Source: Desulfuromonas sp. SDB (GTDB lineage: Bacteria > SDB-A). From it: a stretch of DNA of 9,767 nucleotides. The notes under the pieces were generated by a model. That model had not been told where the DNA came from. It did no database searches and saw only the letters and a program-made list of their open reading frames with translations. A program made the position numbers and the translations under genes. The stretch spans positions 1 through 9,767 of the forward strand of contig LKUE01000130.1 of NCBI GenBank assembly GCA_001412365.1, written 5' to 3'. How positions within the stretch are numbered: position 1 is the first letter of the stretch; every line of letters begins with the position of its first letter. Below are positions 1,026 to 9,767 of this stretch, in pieces.

Positions 1026-3263
1026 CTAATCAACTATAAGAAATTTTCCCATATCAGTTAAATTAGCAGCTTCTAGTATGTAGAAGTACAAGCCTGGTTT
1101 CTCCGGTTTATAAGTTAACAGATGATCCCCGGAGGTAAATGATTGACGGGGGATGAGGTTGGATAGCTGTCTTCCCGAAATGTCATATATAGTTAAGGAA
1201 ATATCACCGGTTAGGGGCAAGGTAATATGAAAGGTAATTTGTTCTCTGGCCGGAGTAGTAAATGCGCAGGAAAATTGACTATTCTTGGTTAATTCTTCCT
1301 CAATTCCCAATGAAGTACAGATAAATGAATAATATAATGAAGGGGCGCTATCCGGATCAGTACTCTCATTTAATCCTCTGTCTCTGGCGTAGATATAGTA
1401 TTTAACCGTATCCGGATTCAGGGTAACCTGGGGGATCTCACCAGTATACCAGTTATCGCTGGAACAGGTTAATTCAGTTGAGTCCCAGACGGCATCTTCA
1501 GTTCTTTTATAAAACAATAGAGCAGTATCCAGGATAAGATTATCGGTTATCTTCGCATTGATTAGGTAGGGACCGGGATAAGTAGTATCATTTACAATGG
1601 TAGTTGATTCAATGACCGGGGGAGTTATATCACATAGCCCTTCCAGATAGACCAATCTCAAGGGCTCATCGGGGTCATCGGAATACACTTTCAGGGTTCC
1701 TGGATAGTGATATTGCACTAAAGGGTGAAAATATACTTCTAATGGCAAAATATTATTAGGCAGTATGGTATCTGGAAACCAGTGAAAGATATCTAAGGAA
1801 TATACATTATTGGTTGATATTACACTGTCTATTATCAGTTGCTTTTCTCCGGTGTTTTCTAGAACTAAATATTGCCAATAACCTGAATCACCTGGGGGAA
1901 TATTCCCAAAATCATGAAAAGTATCGTAAAGTAAAATGTTTTGAGACAATGCAGTTCTAAACTGATAGATCATACTATCCCGGCAACCTGCATATATTTC
2001 AATAAGTCCGTTATTGTTGCCATCTCCTACTGCTAAACCTTCAATCCAATCAGGGAGAGTGCCAATAATTATATAATCCCAGGAAGAACCGTTGAATTTA
2101 TGTTGATAAACTGAATAATTATCGTAAGCAGCATAAATTTCAATTTCACCATCGTTGTTACCATCTCCACAGGTAAGCTCATATATTTGATTGTTTATAT
2201 TTGTTGCAAACGGAGTGCTATTCCAGGTGCTGCCATCCCATTTATGCTGGGCGAGAAATCTGTAATAGGATTCGTAAACTTCAAATTCACCATCTTTATT
2301 GCCATCACAGACCACGATGTTGCTAACTCCCATTTGGTAATGATAAACTACGGTAGTTCGTTCCCAGTGATTTACTACCCATTTATATTGATACAGATAA
2401 CCGTTTTGCATATAACCCCCTCCACCTCCGTAAACTTCTAATTCCCCGTCGTTATTACCATCTCCTATTGCAATAGAGAGAAGGGGGTAATAACCGGGAC
2501 CTATATTCATGATATGCCATGAGTTACTAACATATTTATGCTGATATATAATGCTGTCCCGGACACAGTAAACTTCCTGCATTCCATCGTTGTTTCCGTC
2601 ACCTATTGCCATTTTCTTACAGCCGATCCCGATGCTGGTACTGTCCCAGGAACTTCCATTCCATTTATACTGGAACACGCTATCGGTATAAGCAATGTAA
2701 ACTTCTAATTCCCCGTCATTGTTACCGTCTCCGACTTTAATATCATTTATCCAACTAACCACCGAACCGACAATGGTAGTATCCCAGGAGGTTCCGTTGT
2801 ATTTGCATTGATAGATCTTGCCGCAACCAGTGCAACCGTATATTTCCATTTCTCCATCATTGTTCCCGTCCCCTACTGCGACTGCGCTAAGTGATTTATG
2901 GCAATTATTAACTGTACTGGTAGCGAAAAAATATGGTTGGGTAATTCTTTCATTAATGGTATAGCACATTTTCAGGGTATCCAAGTTTATTACCAGGTCA
3001 TAAATTCCAGTTATCGAACCGTTTAAATTGAAATCACAGGTTAGATAATTGTCATTAACCACGGTTATATTGGTGGCATTTATTTCAGGATTACCCGATC
3101 TGACTAGCTTCAAAGGGGAGGTGCTTGAATTGAAGTTACTCCCGAATATATGTGCATTTATCAAGGTATCATTGGTCCCTGATTGGGGCCAGATGTGGGT
3201 TGCAGAAGCACTCAACGCTGATGAGGTTAACAAAATAACAATAACCACTAATCTGAATTTCAT
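1026..3263 (-). CDS. Secreted T9SS protein with IPT/TIG-like domain, seven DGNNDG repeats (probable beta-propeller), HYDIN-like and Ig-like domains
   Basis: A 745-residue exported protein. The start at 3263 is well supported by AAGGAGG (3269-3275) five bases upstream. Residues 1-21 form a signal peptide ending ASA|T. Residues about 23-95 resemble an IPT/TIG immunoglobulin-like fold. Residues about 125-440 hold seven repeats of 44-52 residues built on V-G-D-G-N-N-D-G-E-x-E-[IV]-Y followed by [YF]Q.K[WYF].G.SWD; the first Asp of each is near residues 132, 178, 222, 268, 320, 367 and 414. The DxNxDGxxE loop is a calcium-binding geometry as in FG-GAP/VCBS repeats, and seven copies suggest a seven-bladed propeller. 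Residues about 445-545 (FGNIPPGDSGYWQYLVLENTG) resemble ASPM/SPD-2/Hydin or DUF1573 domains. Residues about 546-650 are Ig-like (VKYYIYARD). Residues about 665-745 are a T9SS type A sorting domain (LTIYDISGRQL, PGLYFYIL, GKFLIVD), implying outer-membrane export and surface anchoring or release. A sigma-54 promoter and enhancer-like site lie upstream. The biological role is unknown; adhesion or glycan binding is plausible. Confidence 0.9.
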   Translation of the reverse strand: MKFRLVVIVILLTSSALSASATHIWPQSGTNDTLINAHIFGSNFNSSTSPLKLVRSGNPEINATNITVVNDNYLTCDFNLNGSITGIYDLVINLDTLKMCYTINERITQPYFFATSTVNNCHKSLSAVAVGDGNNDGEMEIYGCTGCGKIYQCKYNGTSWDTTIVGSVVSWINDIKVGDGNNDGELEVYIAYTDSVFQYKWNGSSWDSTSIGIGCKKMAIGDGNNDGMQEVYCVRDSIIYQHKYVSNSWHIMNIGPGYYPLLSIAIGDGNNDGELEVYGGGGGYMQNGYLYQYKWVVNHWERTTVVYHYQMGVSNIVVCDGNKDGEFEVYESYYRFLAQHKWDGSTWNSTPFATNINNQIYELTCGDGNNDGEIEIYAAYDNYSVYQHKFNGSSWDYIIIGTLPDWIEGLAVGDGNNNGLIEIYAGCRDSMIYQFRTALSQNILLYDTFHDFGNIPPGDSGYWQYLVLENTGEKQLIIDSVISTNNVYSLDIFHWFPDTILPNNILPLEVYFHPLVQYHYPGTLKVYSDDPDEPLRLVYLEGLCDITPPVIESTTIVNDTTYPGPYLINAKITDNLILDTALLFYKRTEDAVWDSTELTCSSDNWYTGEIPQVTLNPDTVKYYIYARDRGLNESTDPDSAPSLYYSFICTSLGIEEELTKNSQFSCAFTTPAREQITFHITLPLTGDISLTIYDISGRQLSNLIPRQSFTSGDHLLTYKPEKPGLYFYILEAANLTDMGKFLIVD
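1944..2891 (-). repeat. Seven-fold coding repeat (about 140 bp) in the 745-residue secreted protein
   Basis: The seven DGNNDG units correspond to a degenerate tandem array of roughly 132-156 bp per unit. On the plus strand, motifs such as 'CCATCGTTGTTACCATCTCC', 'CCGTCGTTATTACCATCTCC' and 'CCGTCATTGTTACCGTCTCC' recur at about one per unit. Units differ enough at synonymous and loop positions to show that the array is old rather than freshly expanded. Unit 5 (GNKDGEFEVY) has lost the leading Gly of the motif (CDGNKDG), and unit 7 has GNNNG in place of GNNDG. Confidence 0.85.
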
Positions 3264-3326
3264 AAGTTCCTCCTTAAAATTCCCTTATAAGCACTTTTTA
3301 AAATATTGATAAACATAAAAGCATAA

Positions 3327-3342
3327 TGCAATTTATATGCCA
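3327..3342 (-). promoter_or_regulatory. Sigma-54 (RpoN) promoter for the 745-residue secreted protein
   Basis: The minus strand reads TGGCATATAAATTGCA, which matches every position of the sigma-54 consensus TGGCAYRNNNNTTGCW with correct -24/-12 spacing. Transcription should begin near 3316, giving a leader of about 50 bases before ATG 3263. The same box, with one change in the spacer, lies upstream of the other secreted-protein operon at 5298-5313. The flanks are also similar (ATGCAATTWATATGCCA on the plus strand). Confidence 0.85.
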
Positions 3343-3431
3343 GAATGATCACAAATGCCTATGCTACTTCTTTAAGTACATTTATGGAAAGAGTATTTGG
3401 CGGGGAATTGGTTGAATTTCTAAAATACAGA

Positions 3432-3456
3432 AATATTTCCGAAAATCGGAAATATT
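3432..3456. promoter_or_regulatory. Perfect palindrome, candidate enhancer site (UAS) for the NtrC-like regulator
   Basis: Arms AATATTTCCGA (3432-3442) and TCGGAAATATT (3446-3456) are exact inverted complements around AAA. The 17-bp core TTTCCGAAAATCGGAAA (3436-3452) matches the two cores at 5380-5396 and 5399-5415. Its centre is about 128 bp upstream of the predicted sigma-54 start near 3316, a standard enhancer distance for NtrC-family activators. It lies in a gene-free interval, which makes a regulatory role likelier than a terminator one; the AT-rich outer arms and 3-base loop are also poor terminator geometry. Confidence 0.72.
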
Positions 3457-3480
3457 AAATATTAATGAATTATATGTAAA

Positions 3481-3511
3481 TTATTTTATTTACTTTCAAG
3501 CAAATAAATAA
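3481..3511 (-). terminator. Weak AT-only stem downstream of the 475-residue protein gene
   Basis: TTATTTTATTT (3481-3491) can pair with AAATAAATAA (3502-3511) with one bulged base around a 10-base loop. It lies 35 bases past the stop at 3547 on the minus strand. It contains no G-C pairs, so stability is low. It is listed only because no better terminator is visible between this gene and the downstream enhancer-like palindrome. Confidence 0.25.
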
Positions 3512-3546
3512 GAATTAAAAGTTAATCATGTCAATGAGTGTTATTT

Positions 3547-4974
3547 CTATAGAACTAAAAATTTTCCAGAATAGTTATTCTGATCTATCTTCAGGTTGAA
3601 GAAATAAACGCCTTTATTTTCAATATTGAAGTTGATATTATGATTTCCTGCTGAATAAGATTGAGATAAAGGAGTAGAAATAAATCTTCCGGTAAGGTCA
3701 AAAATATTTAGCTTAACAGTACTGTTCTGGTATAAACAAAATTCCAGATTTACTGAATTATCGGTTAACTGATCAATATGAAATGATGTCTCAAAAGGAT
3801 AAGATAAAATAATTTCTTCTACTGCTACCCCATAGGCGTCAGTTTTAATTAAATATATGTCACTGTCATACATGGATATTTCTGAATTGCCAAGGATAAT
3901 ATATCCTCCATCAGTGGTTTGCTTTACAAATTTTCCATAATCATGATTAGCAATCCCAAAAGTTTTAGTCCATAGAGTATCTCCATTACTATTAGTTTTA
4001 ATTAACCATATATCAAAATAGTTGGGATAACCAGTCCAGCAATCACCGACAATGATATATCCTCCGTCAGTGGTTTGCTGAACTGAATAACCCCATTCAT
4101 CGAAAGAACTAGTTCCAATAGATTTTATCCACATAGTGTTACCATAATTATCGGTTTTAATTAACCAAATATCAGATTCAACTCCATTATTAATGGTATA
4201 GCCAACTATAATGTAACCCCCATCAGTAGTTTGCTGAACTGAAAAAGCTTTATCAGTCTGGGTGGTTCCAATAATTTTAGTCCAGGATGAATCCCCATCA
4301 TCATCAGTTTTAACTAGGATAATATCTGAATAATTACCTCCTCCAAAAGAATAGGTATAACCAACTACAATATAGCCCTCATCATCAGTCTGTTGAACAA
4401 ATAAACCTCGATCTACAGAAGAACCTCCAAAAGTCCTAGCCCATACACTGTCTCCGTTTTGATCAGTTTTTGCTAGAAAAATATCGTAGCTTCCAGCTCC
4501 GTATGATGAAGTTGAACCAGTGATAATAAAACCTCCATCAGTAGTTTGCTGAATACAGTTCCCTCGATCGAAATGTTGTCCTCCACCGGTATTAGACCAT
4601 AGAGTATCGCCATTACTGTTTGTTTTAATTAGGTAAATATCTTCTCCTCCAACTCCAAATGACTCGGTAGAACCAAGTACAATATATCCTCCATTTGTGG
4701 TTTGCTGAACTGAATAGCCAACATCAATTTCACTTCCCCCATAAGTCTTACTCCAGGTGATATTTCCCCAGTCATCAGTCTTAATTAGATATAAGTCTGA
4801 ACCACCAGCACCATAAGACTCTGTATATCCAGCAATAATATATCCTCCATCAGATGTTTGTTGGATTGAATTGCCCTCATCAGGCATATTTCCCCCATAA
4901 GTTCTGGTCCAACCGGATACAAGGTTAGGGAAAACAATGAACAATGCTATTGAAATTATTATTTGTTTTTTCAT
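3547..4974 (-). CDS. Secreted T9SS protein with seven QQTTDGGYI repeats (probable beta-propeller)
   Basis: A 475-residue exported protein. I place the start at ATG 4974, not 10 codons upstream at 5004, because AGAGGAGA (4979-4986) sits at the right distance and the signal peptide (MKKQIIISIALFIVFPNLVSG, cleavage near residue 20) then begins cleanly. Residues about 24-385 contain seven very regular repeats of 52-53 residues. Each has W.[KR][TS].G(G), a D..G..VQQTTDGGYI[IV].G segment, then SDI[YW]LIKTD..G. QQT falls near residues 38, 90, 142, 194, 247, 299 and 351 (KQT in the last). Residues about 400-475 form a T9SS type A sorting domain (LNIFDLTGRFI, KGVYFFNL, GKFLVL). The protein should cross the outer membrane via T9SS. 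It is the second gene after the 81-residue CxxC protein with a 43-base gap, both downstream of the sigma-54 promoter at 5298-5313. Similar repeat proteins are frequent but uncharacterised in FCB-type genomes; no catalytic residues are recognisable. Confidence 0.9.
   Translation of the reverse strand: MKKQIIISIALFIVFPNLVSGWTRTYGGNMPDEGNSIQQTSDGGYIIAGYTESYGAGGSDLYLIKTDDWGNITWSKTYGGSEIDVGYSVQQTTNGGYIVLGSTESFGVGGEDIYLIKTNSNGDTLWSNTGGGQHFDRGNCIQQTTDGGFIITGSTSSYGAGSYDIFLAKTDQNGDSVWARTFGGSSVDRGLFVQQTDDEGYIVVGYTYSFGGGNYSDIILVKTDDDGDSSWTKIIGTTQTDKAFSVQQTTDGGYIIVGYTINNGVESDIWLIKTDNYGNTMWIKSIGTSSFDEWGYSVQQTTDGGYIIVGDCWTGYPNYFDIWLIKTNSNGDTLWTKTFGIANHDYGKFVKQTTDGGYIILGNSEISMYDSDIYLIKTDAYGVAVEEIILSYPFETSFHIDQLTDNSVNLEFCLYQNSTVKLNIFDLTGRFISTPLSQSYSAGNHNINFNIENKGVYFFNLKIDQNNYSGKFLVL
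3820..4905 (-). repeat. Seven-fold coding repeat (156-bp period) in the 475-residue secreted protein
   Basis: The unit length is nearly constant at 52 codons. On the plus strand the segment CCTCCATCAGTGGTTTGCT at 3905-3923 recurs with few changes at 4061-4079, 4217-4235 and 4532-4550: the first three are exactly 156 bp apart, and the fourth fits two further units (one with an extra codon). DNA-level conservation is higher here than in the DGNNDG array of the neighbouring gene, suggesting more recent duplication or ongoing homogenisation. Confidence 0.85.
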
Positions 4975-4978
4975 TTTA

Positions 4979-4986
4979 TCTCCTCT
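4979..4986 (-). promoter_or_regulatory. Ribosome-binding site fixing the start at 4974
   Basis: The minus strand reads AGAGGAGA followed by TAAA and ATG. No comparable site precedes the in-frame ATG at 5004, so the shorter protein with a proper signal peptide is preferred. Confidence 0.8.
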
Positions 4987-5017
4987 AATTGATATTATTT
5001 TCAATTACTAACATTTG

Positions 5018-5263
5018 TTATGGAATGAATCGCTCAAATCTGGCTGCGCAGATGGGGCATAGCAGCCAATCGTTATTACCTGACATTACCTGCTGTACCC
5101 AGCGTTGTTCAGTTTCTGCTTTGGACATGCCCAGGGCAGTCCCGAAATTTAAAAGAATAGAATCTGGACGCAGCCCGGCTCCCACCGCTTTTTTTATCTG
5201 CTTTGACGAGTAGCGGATGGAATCCGCCCCTAGGGATACATTGCATAGATCACATACATTCAT
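5018..5263 (-). CDS. Small protein with two CxxC pairs, probable zinc-binding protein
   Basis: An 81-residue protein starting at ATG 5263. TAGGAGT (5268-5274) precedes this start. The longer in-frame start at 5302 lies upstream of the transcription start predicted from the sigma-54 box, so it cannot be the normal one. Cys4 and Cys7 (CDLC) at the N-terminus and Cys69 and Cys72 (CPIC) near the C-terminus would make a four-Cys zinc site closed over a mostly helical middle (QIKKAVGAGLRPDSILLNFG, then AETEQRWVQQVM). There is no signal peptide or membrane segment, so it should be cytoplasmic. I do not recognise a named family. It is the first gene of the sigma-54 operon that also encodes the 475-residue secreted protein. 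A role as an accessory or regulatory factor is possible but not shown. Confidence 0.82.
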   Translation of the reverse strand: MNVCDLCNVSLGADSIRYSSKQIKKAVGAGLRPDSILLNFGTALGMSKAETEQRWVQQVMSGNNDWLLCPICAARFERFIP

Positions 5264-5267
5264 AAGA

Positions 5268-5274
5268 ACTCCTA
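5268..5274 (-). promoter_or_regulatory. Ribosome-binding site fixing the start at 5263
   Basis: The minus strand reads TAGGAGT with four bases before ATG 5263. It selects the internal Met (MNVCDLC) over the upstream one at 5302, which lies inside the promoter region. Confidence 0.75.
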
Positions 5275-5297
5275 TTTTGTACTTATAAATAGATAAA

Positions 5298-5313
5298 TGC
5301 AATTAATATGCCA
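5298..5313 (-). promoter_or_regulatory. Sigma-54 (RpoN) promoter for the CxxC protein and 475-residue protein operon
   Basis: The minus strand reads TGGCATATTAATTGCA, a full match to TGGCAYRNNNNTTGCW. The predicted start near 5287 leaves a leader of about 24 bases before ATG 5263. It differs from the box at 3327-3342 by a single spacer base (TTAA versus TAAA). Finding two full matches, each in front of a co-oriented unit and next to a sigma-54 activator gene, makes a chance origin unlikely. Confidence 0.87.
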
Positions 5314-5379
5314 AAATTGTTAATAATATTAAAACAACCAATTTAAGGCAATTTATAAATTTGAGTAAATAGTGATCAA

Positions 5380-5396
5380 TTTCCATTTTTCGGAAA
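5380..5396. promoter_or_regulatory. Candidate enhancer site 1 for the NtrC-like regulator
   Basis: TTTCCATTTTTCGGAAA is an imperfect 17-bp inverted repeat with half sites TTTCC and GGAAA spaced exactly as in the palindrome at 3436-3452. Its centre is about 101 bp upstream of the predicted start near 5287. Confidence 0.7.
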
Positions 5397-5398
5397 TA

Positions 5399-5415
5399 TT
5401 TCTGTTTTTCGGAAA
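5399..5415. promoter_or_regulatory. Candidate enhancer site 2 for the NtrC-like regulator
   Basis: TTTCTGTTTTTCGGAAA has the same 17-bp layout, with one half-site mismatch (TTTCT). It is centred 19 bp from site 1 and about 120 bp upstream of the predicted start. It abuts the stop codon of the regulator gene (TAA at 5418-5416). Tandem sites about two helical turns apart favour cooperative binding of activator dimers. Confidence 0.68.
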
Positions 5416-6819
5416 TTATCTATGCTTGTAGAAATGGTGTTTAGCTATACCGGTAGCTTTAACTGCATCCAGAACTTTACCGTCAAATGATTTTAAGATA
5501 GATTTGACCAGGGATTCCTTAATATCTTCCAGATTGATTTTCTTTTTGATGATAATATCAGCTAATTCATCAATTAATTCCTGTTCATCTAGTTTAACTG
5601 AAGGTTGATCTGAATTTAAAAAATTAAAATCAGAATCAATTAATATTTGATTTGATCCGGAGACAATTATTGCTCTCATCACCGCATTTTCCAATTCTCG
5701 TATATTACCCGGCCAGGGATATTTTAATAGCAGGGAGAGAGTATTACTGTCTAATTCCTTGGGAGGAAGGTTCATCTCATTACAGAATTTATTTATATTG
5801 AAAGCTACCAACTCTTCAATATCTTCTTTTCTTTCCCTTAACGGTAAAAGATGAAGGGGATAACTGTTGATCCGGTAGTAAAGATCTTCTCTAAAATCAC
5901 CCTGTTTAACTGCTATCTCCAGATTCCGGTTGGTGGCAGAGATCAACCTGAAGTCCACATCAATAGTTTTATTACTGCCCAACCGGGAAAATTTCTTTTC
6001 CTGAAGAACATTCAGCAGCTTGATCTGAAGATTGATATTCATTTCCCCTATTTCATCCAGAAATAAAGTTCCCTGATCAGCCAGTTCAATTTTACCGGGT
6101 TTGGAGTTAACTGCTCCCGTAAATGCTCCTTTCTCATATCCGAACAATTCACTTTCCAGCAAATCCTGGGGGATGGCTGCACAGTTGATTTTGATGAATG
6201 GTTTTTCTTTTCGGGGACCGGAGGAGTGAATTAATCTGGCAACTACCTCCTTGCCTGTACCGGTTTCGCCGGTTATCAGAACATTTACGGATAATCCGGA
6301 TATTTTCAGAACATCCTCAAATATTTTATTTAATCCTTTTTTAAGCCCGATGATCTTGGTGTTCTGTTCGAAGAGCCTGTGCTTTAATTCCTGGTTCTCC
6401 ATATCTAATAATTTCAGATAGTCTGCGGTTTGTTTCTTCTTAGAACACTCCGCAATAATTAGATCCAAGGTTTGCTGAAGTTCTGTTAAATCAATTGGCT
6501 TTTCAATGAAATGATTTACCAGGCCTTCATTTAGTACCTTTTCCAGTAGCTGTTTGTCCCCGTATGCGGTAAATAAAATCCCATATCCATAATTATTTTT
6601 TTCTTTTGCGGCCAGTAAAAGATCAATTCCGGTAACTCTGGGCATTTTGTAATCGGCAATAATTATGTCAAAATAATCTTTTTCCAATTCATGTAGAGCT
6701 TTTTGGGGATCAGAAAAGAAATCAATATTGTACTCTTGGAAATATTCCTTTAAATCTTCAATTAAGCTGGATTCATCATCTACAAACATGATTTTCAAAT
6801 TATGTTCAGAAATTTCCAT
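5416..6819 (-). CDS. NtrC-family sigma-54 dependent response regulator
   Basis: A 467-residue transcriptional activator. Residues 8-125 are a receiver domain with acidic D14/D15, phosphoacceptor D56 (IIIADYKMP), T84 and K107 (EKPID). Residues about 130-160 look like a coiled-coil linker. Residues about 160-390 are the AAA+ sigma-54 activation domain: Walker A GETGTGKE (184-191), ELFGYEKGAFTGA with the sigma-54 contacting GAFTGA loop (231-236), Walker B TLFLDEIGEM, arginine-finger region FREDLYYRI, and sensor II WPGNIREL (369-376). The C-terminus is a Fis-type HTH (residues about 434-467; KVLDAVKATGIAKHHFYKHR) that stops right after the recognition helix, without the usual few extra residues. 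All key residues are intact, so it should hydrolyse ATP and open sigma-54 promoters. ATG 6819 is preceded by AAAAGGAAA inside the end of the kinase gene; the kinase stop is one base away, so the pair is translationally linked. Likely targets are the two sigma-54 promoters downstream on the same strand. Confidence 0.95.
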   Translation of the reverse strand: MEISEHNLKIMFVDDESSLIEDLKEYFQEYNIDFFSDPQKALHELEKDYFDIIIADYKMPRVTGIDLLLAAKEKNNYGYGILFTAYGDKQLLEKVLNEGLVNHFIEKPIDLTELQQTLDLIIAECSKKKQTADYLKLLDMENQELKHRLFEQNTKIIGLKKGLNKIFEDVLKISGLSVNVLITGETGTGKEVVARLIHSSGPRKEKPFIKINCAAIPQDLLESELFGYEKGAFTGAVNSKPGKIELADQGTLFLDEIGEMNINLQIKLLNVLQEKKFSRLGSNKTIDVDFRLISATNRNLEIAVKQGDFREDLYYRINSYPLHLLPLRERKEDIEELVAFNINKFCNEMNLPPKELDSNTLSLLLKYPWPGNIRELENAVMRAIIVSGSNQILIDSDFNFLNSDQPSVKLDEQELIDELADIIIKKKINLEDIKESLVKSILKSFDGKVLDAVKATGIAKHHFYKHR

Positions 6820-6820
6820 G

Positions 6821-9472
6821 TTATTTCCTTTTCATGGTTATAGCAAATTCACTGCCCTTGTTTTCTTCTGAATTCACTGAAATATTCCAACCCATTTTCA
6901 ATACTAGATTTTTTACAATATAAAGACCAAGGCCAGTTCCTTCACCTACCTCTTTCGAGGTGTAAAAAGCATCAAAGATATATTTCAACTCTTCCCGGGA
7001 CATTCCTTTCCCATTGTCTTTGACAATGATAACAGGATCATATTCGGTTTTAAATGCCTTTATTTTAATTTCTCCTTGTTCATCAACTGCATCTAAGGCA
7101 TTGAGAATAAGGTTGGATAAGATTTGGATTAGTGCATCATAATTTGCATATATACTGAGATCTTTCTCAATATCAATAGAAAATATTACCTTCTTATCTT
7201 TGTAATCCTCAAATAATTTAATTATCGGGGGAATGAGTTTTTTTAAATTTAAATTTGTTTTCTTAATTATTTCCTGATAGTAAAGGGACTTAAGGTTTTT
7301 TATGATATTGGTGATTCTATCCAGATTATATTTAATCCGTTCAATATAAGGTTGAGTTTTTTCCCTGGTGGTTGAATCTAGGTTGTTTAGATATTTTTTT
7401 AAGTTTTCCAACGGAGCACTAATGGATATCAGGGGATTAATTAATTCATGGGATATTCCCCCCATCAATTTTCCAAAGGTAAAATATTTGTTTTGTTCGA
7501 ACAGGGAATTTTTCATTTTCTGAAGACGGAGTAGAGCGTCAATCCTGGTCATCAATTCATCAGCGGAAAATGGTTTGTAGATGAAATCTACTGCTCCCAG
7601 AGATATTCCTTTCAATTTTTCCTTATCCCCTGTTTTGGCGGTCAGAAAGATAAAGGGTATATCCTGATATATATCCCGATTCACCATGTTTTCATAAAAT
7701 TGATAACCATCCATTTCATCCATCATAATATCGGACAGAATCAGGTTAGGTAAGGGGATAGAGGTTATTTTATCTAAAGCGATCTGACCATTTTCAGCAG
7801 TGAAAACATTGTATTTTTTGGATAATTTATACTGGAGGAATTTCAGCAAGTTCTTATTGTCTTCTACTACTAGTATATTTTCCCGCTGGGATAAATATTT
7901 TTCTTGATGCAATTCCAACTCGAATTGAAAGTTTTCCGGAGTGGAAACTTCAAAATCAGTTTGAATATTTTCAGATCCATCTGGTATATATCGGGGTAAG
8001 GTAAGGGTAAATTCACTGCCCTGATCCTTCTCGCTTTTTAAGTTAATGGTTCCATCTAATGATTTAACTATTTCCGAGGTGATGTAAAGACCCATCCCGA
8101 TACCCTGGATGTTCTGCTTGGCGTGAGAAATCTGGTAAAATGGTGAAAATATATGTTTCTGCTGCTGATCGGAAATCCCCATTCCAGAATCTTTTACTTT
8201 TAGAATTATAAAGCTGTGATCATTGTCTAAGAAAACATCAATTGTGCCCTGGGTTGTATATTTTATAGCATTATCCAGAAGATTGTTAATGATCCGGTCA
8301 AAGGCAAAAGGATCTGCCTTTATGTATAGGTCAATGGCTAAGTTACTGATTAGGTTGATGTTTTTTCTATGAGCATAGCTTCTAAATACCTTTAACTTGT
8401 CTTTTACTATTTCGGAGATGTTTACTACTTGGTCATGATTGTAAAATATCTGACCTCGCTCCAGTTTTTCCGCATCCAGAAAATTTACCATATCCCTTAA
8501 CAGTTTATTGAGGTTCTGTTGAATAACCTTCAACTCTTCAGAAGGTGGAGACTTACTCATGTACTCAGTTAAATAGTTCTGAATAATGGTTAGAGGAGTT
8601 TTGGTTTCATGAGCAAGATTAATGAATAAATTGGTTTTCTGCTCACTGGCTTTTTCAATTTCAAGTTTCGCTTTTTCCAGTTCCCGGGTTCTTTGGTTAA
8701 CTTTTTTTTCAAGATTATCTCTTAAATCTATTAAGTGGTAATGTTCCTGGTTGAAATGGGAAGTTAGGGCATAAGCGGAAAATAAAGCCATGGCTAGACA
8801 ACCGATGTTTACCATAAGGGATTGTAGGAAATATGAAAAAACATTAATAATCCAAATGGTTTGGATTATCATTCCTAAATAGAAAAAGACAATTCCAAAA
8901 AATATCAGTAATTTCCATTTCTGCTTATACCTTCTTCCCTTTTTGTTGAAAAAAACCTGAATTATTCTGACTGCAATGTAGATACTCCAGGGAACGGGTA
9001 TAACCGTATTTATTATCTCAGGAATATTCCAGTTTTTTATTATTATGTAGAGGATTAAACCCATTATATAGGGAGTTAGGATACATAAGATATAGCCCCA
9101 GATTAGTTGATTTTTTAATGTCTGTAGTTCTAGAGCATAGTATATGAAATAAAGAAAACTGAAAATTAAAAATACACTGGTTAAGCCTTCTAAGGTAATT
9201 CTGTAAACTAAAGGTACAATCTGATAGTGAGGATCGAATTCAGGGATGAGCATTTTTTGGATGACGTATACCATAAATGAAAATATCAAAATAGCGTAGT
9301 GCAAATTATTCTTATCTTCAGGTCTGCCCCAGTAAACCAATAGATGGTAAATTGCCAGGGTGGAGTAGATCCCCAAGAATATAAATGCTATATATATGGG
9401 AACTAATTCAGAAGTATGAAGGGTTTTAGGGGCAAATGCGGAGTTTTGAATTATTAGTTTTAATAATAACAA
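6821..9472 (-). CDS. Membrane hybrid histidine kinase with kinase-receiver-kinase architecture
   Basis: An 883-residue sensor kinase. The start is TTG 9472, weakly supported by TGGAA just upstream; an in-frame stop immediately before it rules out a longer protein, and the next Met lies inside a membrane helix. Residues about 25-240 carry about seven hydrophobic helices, resembling the 7TM part of 7TMR-DISM sensors but without the large periplasmic domain. Residues about 245-280 are a coiled coil. The first kinase core has H288 (NLAHETKTPL), N-box NNLLDNAIKY (396-405), DSGMG and GIGMGLYI (457-464). A receiver at 531-650 has E537/D538, phosphoacceptor D581 (LILSDIMMD), T611 and K633. The second, NtrB-like core has H675 (GGISHELINPL), N791 (LILNALDAV), DNGKG and GTGLGLYI (845-852). 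Both cores look catalytically complete. The second is the likely donor to the NtrC-type regulator encoded one base downstream; the first may phosphorylate the internal receiver to control it. The signal is unknown. Confidence 0.93.
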   Translation of the reverse strand: MLLLKLIIQNSAFAPKTLHTSELVPIYIAFIFLGIYSTLAIYHLLVYWGRPEDKNNLHYAILIFSFMVYVIQKMLIPEFDPHYQIVPLVYRITLEGLTSVFLIFSFLYFIYYALELQTLKNQLIWGYILCILTPYIMGLILYIIIKNWNIPEIINTVIPVPWSIYIAVRIIQVFFNKKGRRYKQKWKLLIFFGIVFFYLGMIIQTIWIINVFSYFLQSLMVNIGCLAMALFSAYALTSHFNQEHYHLIDLRDNLEKKVNQRTRELEKAKLEIEKASEQKTNLFINLAHETKTPLTIIQNYLTEYMSKSPPSEELKVIQQNLNKLLRDMVNFLDAEKLERGQIFYNHDQVVNISEIVKDKLKVFRSYAHRKNINLISNLAIDLYIKADPFAFDRIINNLLDNAIKYTTQGTIDVFLDNDHSFIILKVKDSGMGISDQQQKHIFSPFYQISHAKQNIQGIGMGLYITSEIVKSLDGTINLKSEKDQGSEFTLTLPRYIPDGSENIQTDFEVSTPENFQFELELHQEKYLSQRENILVVEDNKNLLKFLQYKLSKKYNVFTAENGQIALDKITSIPLPNLILSDIMMDEMDGYQFYENMVNRDIYQDIPFIFLTAKTGDKEKLKGISLGAVDFIYKPFSADELMTRIDALLRLQKMKNSLFEQNKYFTFGKLMGGISHELINPLISISAPLENLKKYLNNLDSTTREKTQPYIERIKYNLDRITNIIKNLKSLYYQEIIKKTNLNLKKLIPPIIKLFEDYKDKKVIFSIDIEKDLSIYANYDALIQILSNLILNALDAVDEQGEIKIKAFKTEYDPVIIVKDNGKGMSREELKYIFDAFYTSKEVGEGTGLGLYIVKNLVLKMGWNISVNSEENKGSEFAITMKRK

Positions 9473-9605: not shown

Positions 9606-9655
9606 ATTGACAGGATGCCCTACCAATACCCAACTACTAAACCACAGATGAACAC
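9606..9655 (+). repeat. Imperfect direct repeat, copy A (about 50 bp)
   Basis: It starts ATTGACAGGATGC and ends ACCACAGATGAACAC. It aligns with 9720-9767 with a few substitutions and single-base gaps, at an offset of 112-114 bp. It includes the second ACCACAGATGAACAC copy. Confidence 0.65.
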
Positions 9656-9719: not shown

Positions 9720-9767
9720 ATTGACATGATGCTTCCCAATTACCATTACAAAACCACAGATGAACAC
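9720..9767 (+). repeat. Imperfect direct repeat, copy B (about 48 bp, reaches window edge)
   Basis: It starts ATTGACATGATGC and ends AAACCACAGATGAACAC, matching copy A. Because it runs to the last base, the array probably continues outside the window. Confidence 0.62.

Follow-up and report, generated by a model that had tools for sequence, protein, structure and literature searches.

The enhancer sites of NtrC in enterobacteria, TGCACC(A/T)4TGGTGCA, are 17-bp dyads of the 6-N5-6 type with an A/T-rich centre. They lie upstream of a sigma-54 promoter, their regulator carries a REC, an AAA+, and a Fis-like domain, and the targets are nitrogen genes; the NtrC sites of glnA are about 30 bp apart. 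The distance of bEBP enhancers from their promoter, on its upstream side, is usually 80-150 bp (PMC4987338). Such promoters very often carry tandem palindromes, which aid hexamerisation of the activator (PMC6296734). In Pseudomonas putida, the NtrC-type regulator CbrB acts on several regularly spaced, non-palindromic subsites, which are placed upstream of a sigma-54 promoter (PMC6296734). In Desulfovibrio vulgaris, there are many EBPs per genome, with largely distinct motifs for each regulator (PMC4641369).

The window analysed here is a stretch of 9,767 nucleotides from Desulfuromonas sp. SDB (genome G000), in which all genes from 1026 to 9472 are encoded on the minus strand. Like the NtrC sites, the sites of this locus are 17-bp 6-N5-6 dyads with an A/T-rich centre upstream of sigma-54 promoters, and the neighbouring regulator has REC and AAA+ domains and a putative Fis-like domain. 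However, the half-site, TTTCYR, is unlike that of NtrC, the dyads nearly abut with 19 bp from centre to centre, unlike the glnA sites, and the targets are probable T9SS-exported proteins rather than nitrogen genes. The sites resemble the CbrB subsites in number, regular spacing, promoter type and regulator class, but each subsite is here a dyad. As in D. vulgaris, many EBPs and largely distinct motifs were found in the genome; compared with those regulons, the present one is predicted from sequence and limited to one locus. Very probably, the palindrome of this locus forms part of a tandem UAS (enhancer), of which it is the stronger half, and the activator acting there is a sigma-54-dependent response regulator of the NtrC type, with the product of 5416-6819 as the most likely candidate.

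An exact palindrome with 11-bp arms had been reported at 3432-3456 in the preliminary description. This was borne out, as the segment reads AATATTTCCGAAAATCGGAAATATT, with a 3-bp gap and zero mismatches between the arms. Its 17-bp core, TTTCCGANNNTCGGAAA, occurs exactly only once in the 3.14-Mb genome (433 contigs). When intergenic sequences of 283 bp and matched composition were simulated, 0.6% contained arms of at least 11 bp; among simulated whole windows, approximately 7% contained them somewhere. The palindrome length is by itself only moderately surprising, and its significance comes from the context.

On the minus strand, the core of the palindrome is the promoter-distal dyad of the promoter P2 (site A, 3436-3452, perfect TTTCCGATTTTCGGAAA, centre approximately -128). 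The palindrome had been described as standing alone; however, a degenerate promoter-proximal dyad (site B, 3417-3433, minus strand TTTCTGTATTTTAGAAA, forward-strand reading TTTCTAAAATACAGAAA, centre approximately -109) is offset from the core by exactly -19 bp. Site B matches 9 of the 12 consensus positions, including all 8 outer ones, and the null probability of these 8 outer matches is about 4e-5 per position. Moreover, sites A and B are joined by a TA linker in a 19-bp register, which is identical to that of the pair at 5380-5415.

This second pair belongs to the promoter P1 and is also read on the minus strand. Its site A (5399-5415, TTTCCGAAAAACAGAAA, centre approximately -120) lies directly 3' of the regulator stop codon, and site B (5380-5396, TTTCCGAAAAATGGAAA) is centred at approximately -101. 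The two P1 dyads were found to have the arms in common with the palindrome, as previously stated, with 2 mismatches each. The tandem span is 36 bp at both promoters. Counted from the sites, the matches to TTTCCG-N5-CGGAAA amount to 12 + 9 (21/24) at P2 and 11 + 11 (22/24) at P1. The proposed trade-off between affinity and cooperativity, in which a lone perfect site was set against tandem imperfect ones, is thus not upheld, since both promoters carry tandem sites of nearly equal score.

The distribution of the motif in the genome was then determined. The layout TTC-N9-GAA-N4-TTC-N9-GAA was present only at 3418-3451 and 5381-5414, and the control gave 0. When up to 2 mismatches were allowed, the core was found at 18 places, 15 of which were inside ORFs, and the 3 intergenic ones were the sites of this locus. 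The 15 places inside ORFs, a number comparable in magnitude to that of the control (8), were dropped as background. It had been a concern that the motif might lie mainly in coding regions, which in substance is not the case. The looser pattern TTTCNG-N5-CNGAAA gave 19 places against 1 for the control, but this comparison is not clean, since the pattern is self-reverse-complementary and the control is not. The Rfam search gave no hit.

Both pairs are followed by a sigma-54 promoter on the same strand as the pair. The P2 promoter is TGGCATATAAATTGCA (3327-3342, minus strand), with an inferred transcription start near 3316, and the P1 promoter is TGGCATATTAATTGCA (5298-5313, minus strand), with an inferred start near 5287; the starts and the dyad centres were computed with -24 placed on the second G. 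Both are perfect TGGCAY-N5-TTGCA elements, and both conform to TGGCAY-N5-TTGCW with the GG and GC elements 10 bp apart. The gap from the end of each pair to its perfect -24/-12 promoter is 66-74 bp, and the dyad centres lie at -128/-109 for P2 and -120/-101 for P1. These centres (-101 to -128) fall within the 80-150 bp range of bEBP enhancers (PMC4987338), and the pairs further show the dyad of fixed spacing and the regular multi-site register of a bEBP UAS, the latter being a frequent rather than a universal criterion. The genome encodes rpoN (PF04552, E 4.2e-47). Neither the promoters 3' of both pairs nor the class of the regulator had been included in the preliminary description.

A palindrome by itself would also fit the operator of a repressor or of a sigma-70-type regulator unrelated to sigma-54. 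Nevertheless, positions from -101 to -128 are too far for simple occlusion, and such an operator would not account for the conserved arrangement with perfect sigma-54 elements adjoining a bEBP gene. We regard this explanation as very improbable.

Genome-wide, the promoter consensus TGGCAYRNNNNTTGCW had 13 matches, whereas its reversed control had none. Eleven of these are outside ORFs, and all 11 lead into an ORF, whose start is 47-118 bp from the first base of the promoter for the 9 promoters elsewhere in the genome and 79 and 50 bp for the two window promoters. The other two matches lie inside a long frame (C114) and inside an opposite-strand ORF (C398). Further sigma-54 promoters carry different dyads, for example TGCACAAAATTTGTGCA on C365 (L027), TGTTCTATTATAGAACA on C114 (L019), and GGTGTTAAAATTATTAACACC on C301 (L026), as is expected if the regulators have private motifs. 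In addition, two other sigma-54 promoters (L017 and L026) are situated just 5' of genes starting like response regulators, hinting at sigma-54 cascades or autoregulation.

To our analysis of conservation, one orthologous locus contributed, that of G001, which belongs to another genus of the same family. The G001 regulator is 76% identical, and the gene order of kinase, regulator, and small CxxC gene is kept. Directly after the matching TAA stop codon, G001 carries TTTCCGATTTCCGGAAT-AT-ATTCCGTAAATCGGAAA. Compared with the P1 pair of the window, the 19-bp register is equal and the arms are nearly alike, whereas the centres are changed; the arms are therefore retained in the orthologous intergenic region, where the preliminary description had looked to a comparison. 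A TGGCAT-type element, TGGCATGGATATTGAT, follows the G001 pair at 73 bp, and its -12 element is degraded (TTGAT rather than TTGC(A/T)). In G002 and G003, whose best regulator match is approximately 42% identical, no intergenic pair of the four-half-site layout was found. A comparison of operators with the regulator relatives in named genomes was dropped, since these are too distant (best full-length match approximately 42%).

The 12 half-sites of the 6 dyads (6-N5-6) from the two organisms read TTTCYR, with the first T sometimes replaced by A. T2, T3, and C4 never vary, Y and R occupy positions 5 and 6, and A or T stands at positions 7-8 in nearly every case; the dyad centres are A/T-rich and variable. 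The earlier suggestion that conserved arms around a variable centre would form the binding site of a dimeric regulator gains support from these half-sites and from G001, where arms and register are kept and centres are changed. Chance occurrence of the palindrome in AT-rich intergenic DNA, to which the frequency of equally long palindromes among the simulated windows lends some room, would leave aside the register-exact tandem partner, the second tandem, the orthologous retention, and the adjoining promoters. Since the register, the promoters, and the conservation have to be taken together, chance is hardly credible as an explanation.

Two other elements were noticed in these regions. The sequence ATAAAT-N3-CTTAAA lies between enhancer and promoter at P1, P2, and the G001 P1 (window 3371-3385 and 5342-5356, minus strand), and is possibly the site of a bending protein. 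In G001, a perfect sigma-54-like TGGCATTTAAGTTGCT (L040, 2971-2986, minus strand) points back to the regulator gene. It is flanked by the enhancer pair on one side and by the degraded forward promoter on the other, and could be a chance match, or a divergent or antisense promoter.

The T9SS gene at 3547-4974 lies on the same strand as the palindrome and ends about 90 bp ahead of it, and the palindrome might also be the intrinsic terminator hairpin of this gene. A terminator scan scored 3456-3432 on the minus strand as weakly terminator-like, the RNA fold reached -13.6 kcal/mol (z -4.4), and the G001 tandem also folds well (-18.8 kcal/mol). However, only 3 of the 11 pairs in the stem are G-C, the U tract at P2 is broken (UCUGUAUUUU), and no U tract was found 3' of the P1 pair or of the G001 pair, so that the defining features of an intrinsic terminator, a stem rich in G+C and a U tract after it, are not present. 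Furthermore, the P1 pair of the window shares the half-sites and the 19-bp register with G001 but, at -8 kcal/mol (z -2.4), lacks the long G001 hairpin. A terminator would also leave the degenerate partner and the two sigma-54 promoters unexplained, and we consider it improbable.

The predicted binder of the enhancer dyads is the response regulator encoded at 5416-6819 (minus strand), which consists of REC, a sigma-54 AAA+ domain with the GAFTGA loop, and a putative Fis-like C-terminal domain. Pfam matches were obtained for REC (E 7e-17), the sigma-54-activator AAA+ domain (E 3.6e-70), and the AAA+ lid. The phospho-acceptor D56 is invariant across a 14-sequence alignment, and sequence and fold searches led to NtrC4 and NtrC1 (structures 3dzd and 1ny5). 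No HTH was detected by Pfam in the last 89 residues. In the same alignment, the C-terminal end aligns with the Fis-like HTH ends of relatives, and the predicted model shows four helices at 412-425, 430-444, 449-456, and 460-466 (pLDDT approximately 77-85); the putative HTH is assigned on the alignment and this model. The gene of a hybrid sensor histidine kinase (6821-9472, minus strand; 7TMR-DISM, two kinase modules, and REC) lies 1 bp before the regulator gene.

Alternatively, the sites may be enhancers that serve a different sigma-54 regulator; the genome has about 20 matches to the 5416-6819 regulator, and members of the family are able to act away from their own gene. This explanation is less economical and appears unlikely, since every intergenic near-match of the motif sits at this locus, the pair abuts the regulator stop codon in two genera with the order of kinase, regulator, and small gene kept in G001, and the remaining sigma-54 promoters carry different dyads.

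As for the likely targets of the tandem enhancers, the first P1 gene encodes an 81-aa protein with two CxxC pairs (5018-5263, minus strand), whose G001 orthologue is 57% identical; Pfam gave no family for it, and the fold search gave no confident match. The second P1 gene encodes a repeat protein with a T9SS type A sorting tail (3547-4974, minus strand), and the two genes, separated by 43 bp, probably form an operon. The likely target of P2 is the FG-GAP repeat protein with a T9SS type A sorting tail encoded at 1026-3263 (minus strand), probably a cell-surface protein. No orthologue of it was found in G001, where only weak matches to the tail and the repeats were obtained. An inverted repeat with 13-bp arms (AGTCAGGGAGAAA..TTTCTCCCTGACT) was observed at 978-1011, 3' of a gene ending at 942, and is probably a terminator. 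Near the contig end, ACCACAGATGAACAC is repeated at 9641-9655 and 9753-9767; with at most 1 mismatch, it has 34 genomic occurrences (control, 0), many of them at contig ends, and is probably a dispersed repeat at which the assembly breaks.

The sites, their register, the promoters, the regulator domains, rpoN, and the conservation in a second genus are established at the level of sequence. From these, we infer binding by the 5416-6819 regulator, its phosphorylation, looping, and activation. In the proposed course of events, the hybrid kinase would phosphorylate the REC domain of the regulator at D56, and regulator dimers would bind the two 17-bp dyads, TTTCYR-N5-YRGAAA, 19 bp apart. The bound dimers would assemble into a hexamer, which would reach RNA polymerase-sigma-54 at the -24/-12 element approximately 70 bp downstream via DNA looping and spend ATP to open the promoter complex. 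Switching on P2 would then yield the FG-GAP T9SS protein, and switching on P1 the small CxxC protein and the second T9SS protein.

We further speculated that the kinase, the bEBP, and the two tandem enhancers constitute a private two-component/sigma-54 circuit, whose sole regulon is the CxxC protein and the two T9SS-tailed surface or secreted proteins, and that the P2 promoter was gained since the split from G001. We put forward this wider proposal tentatively, with slightly more doubt than confidence. The control mode is already well known, and this locus adds another case. A narrow literature search retrieved no report in which type IX-exported proteins are controlled by sigma-54, and nothing specific to this lineage. 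The analysis leads from an unexplained palindrome to a complete candidate circuit of sensor, activator, enhancers, promoters, and targets in a little-studied bacterium, whose lineage is known here from a draft genome. The dyad motif offers a handle for reading the specificity of the regulator, and, as other sigma-54 promoters have dyads of their own, the pairing of regulators and motifs could be worked out genome-wide. If the private circuit is true, an uncultivated lineage would display exported proteins in a stimulus-gated manner.
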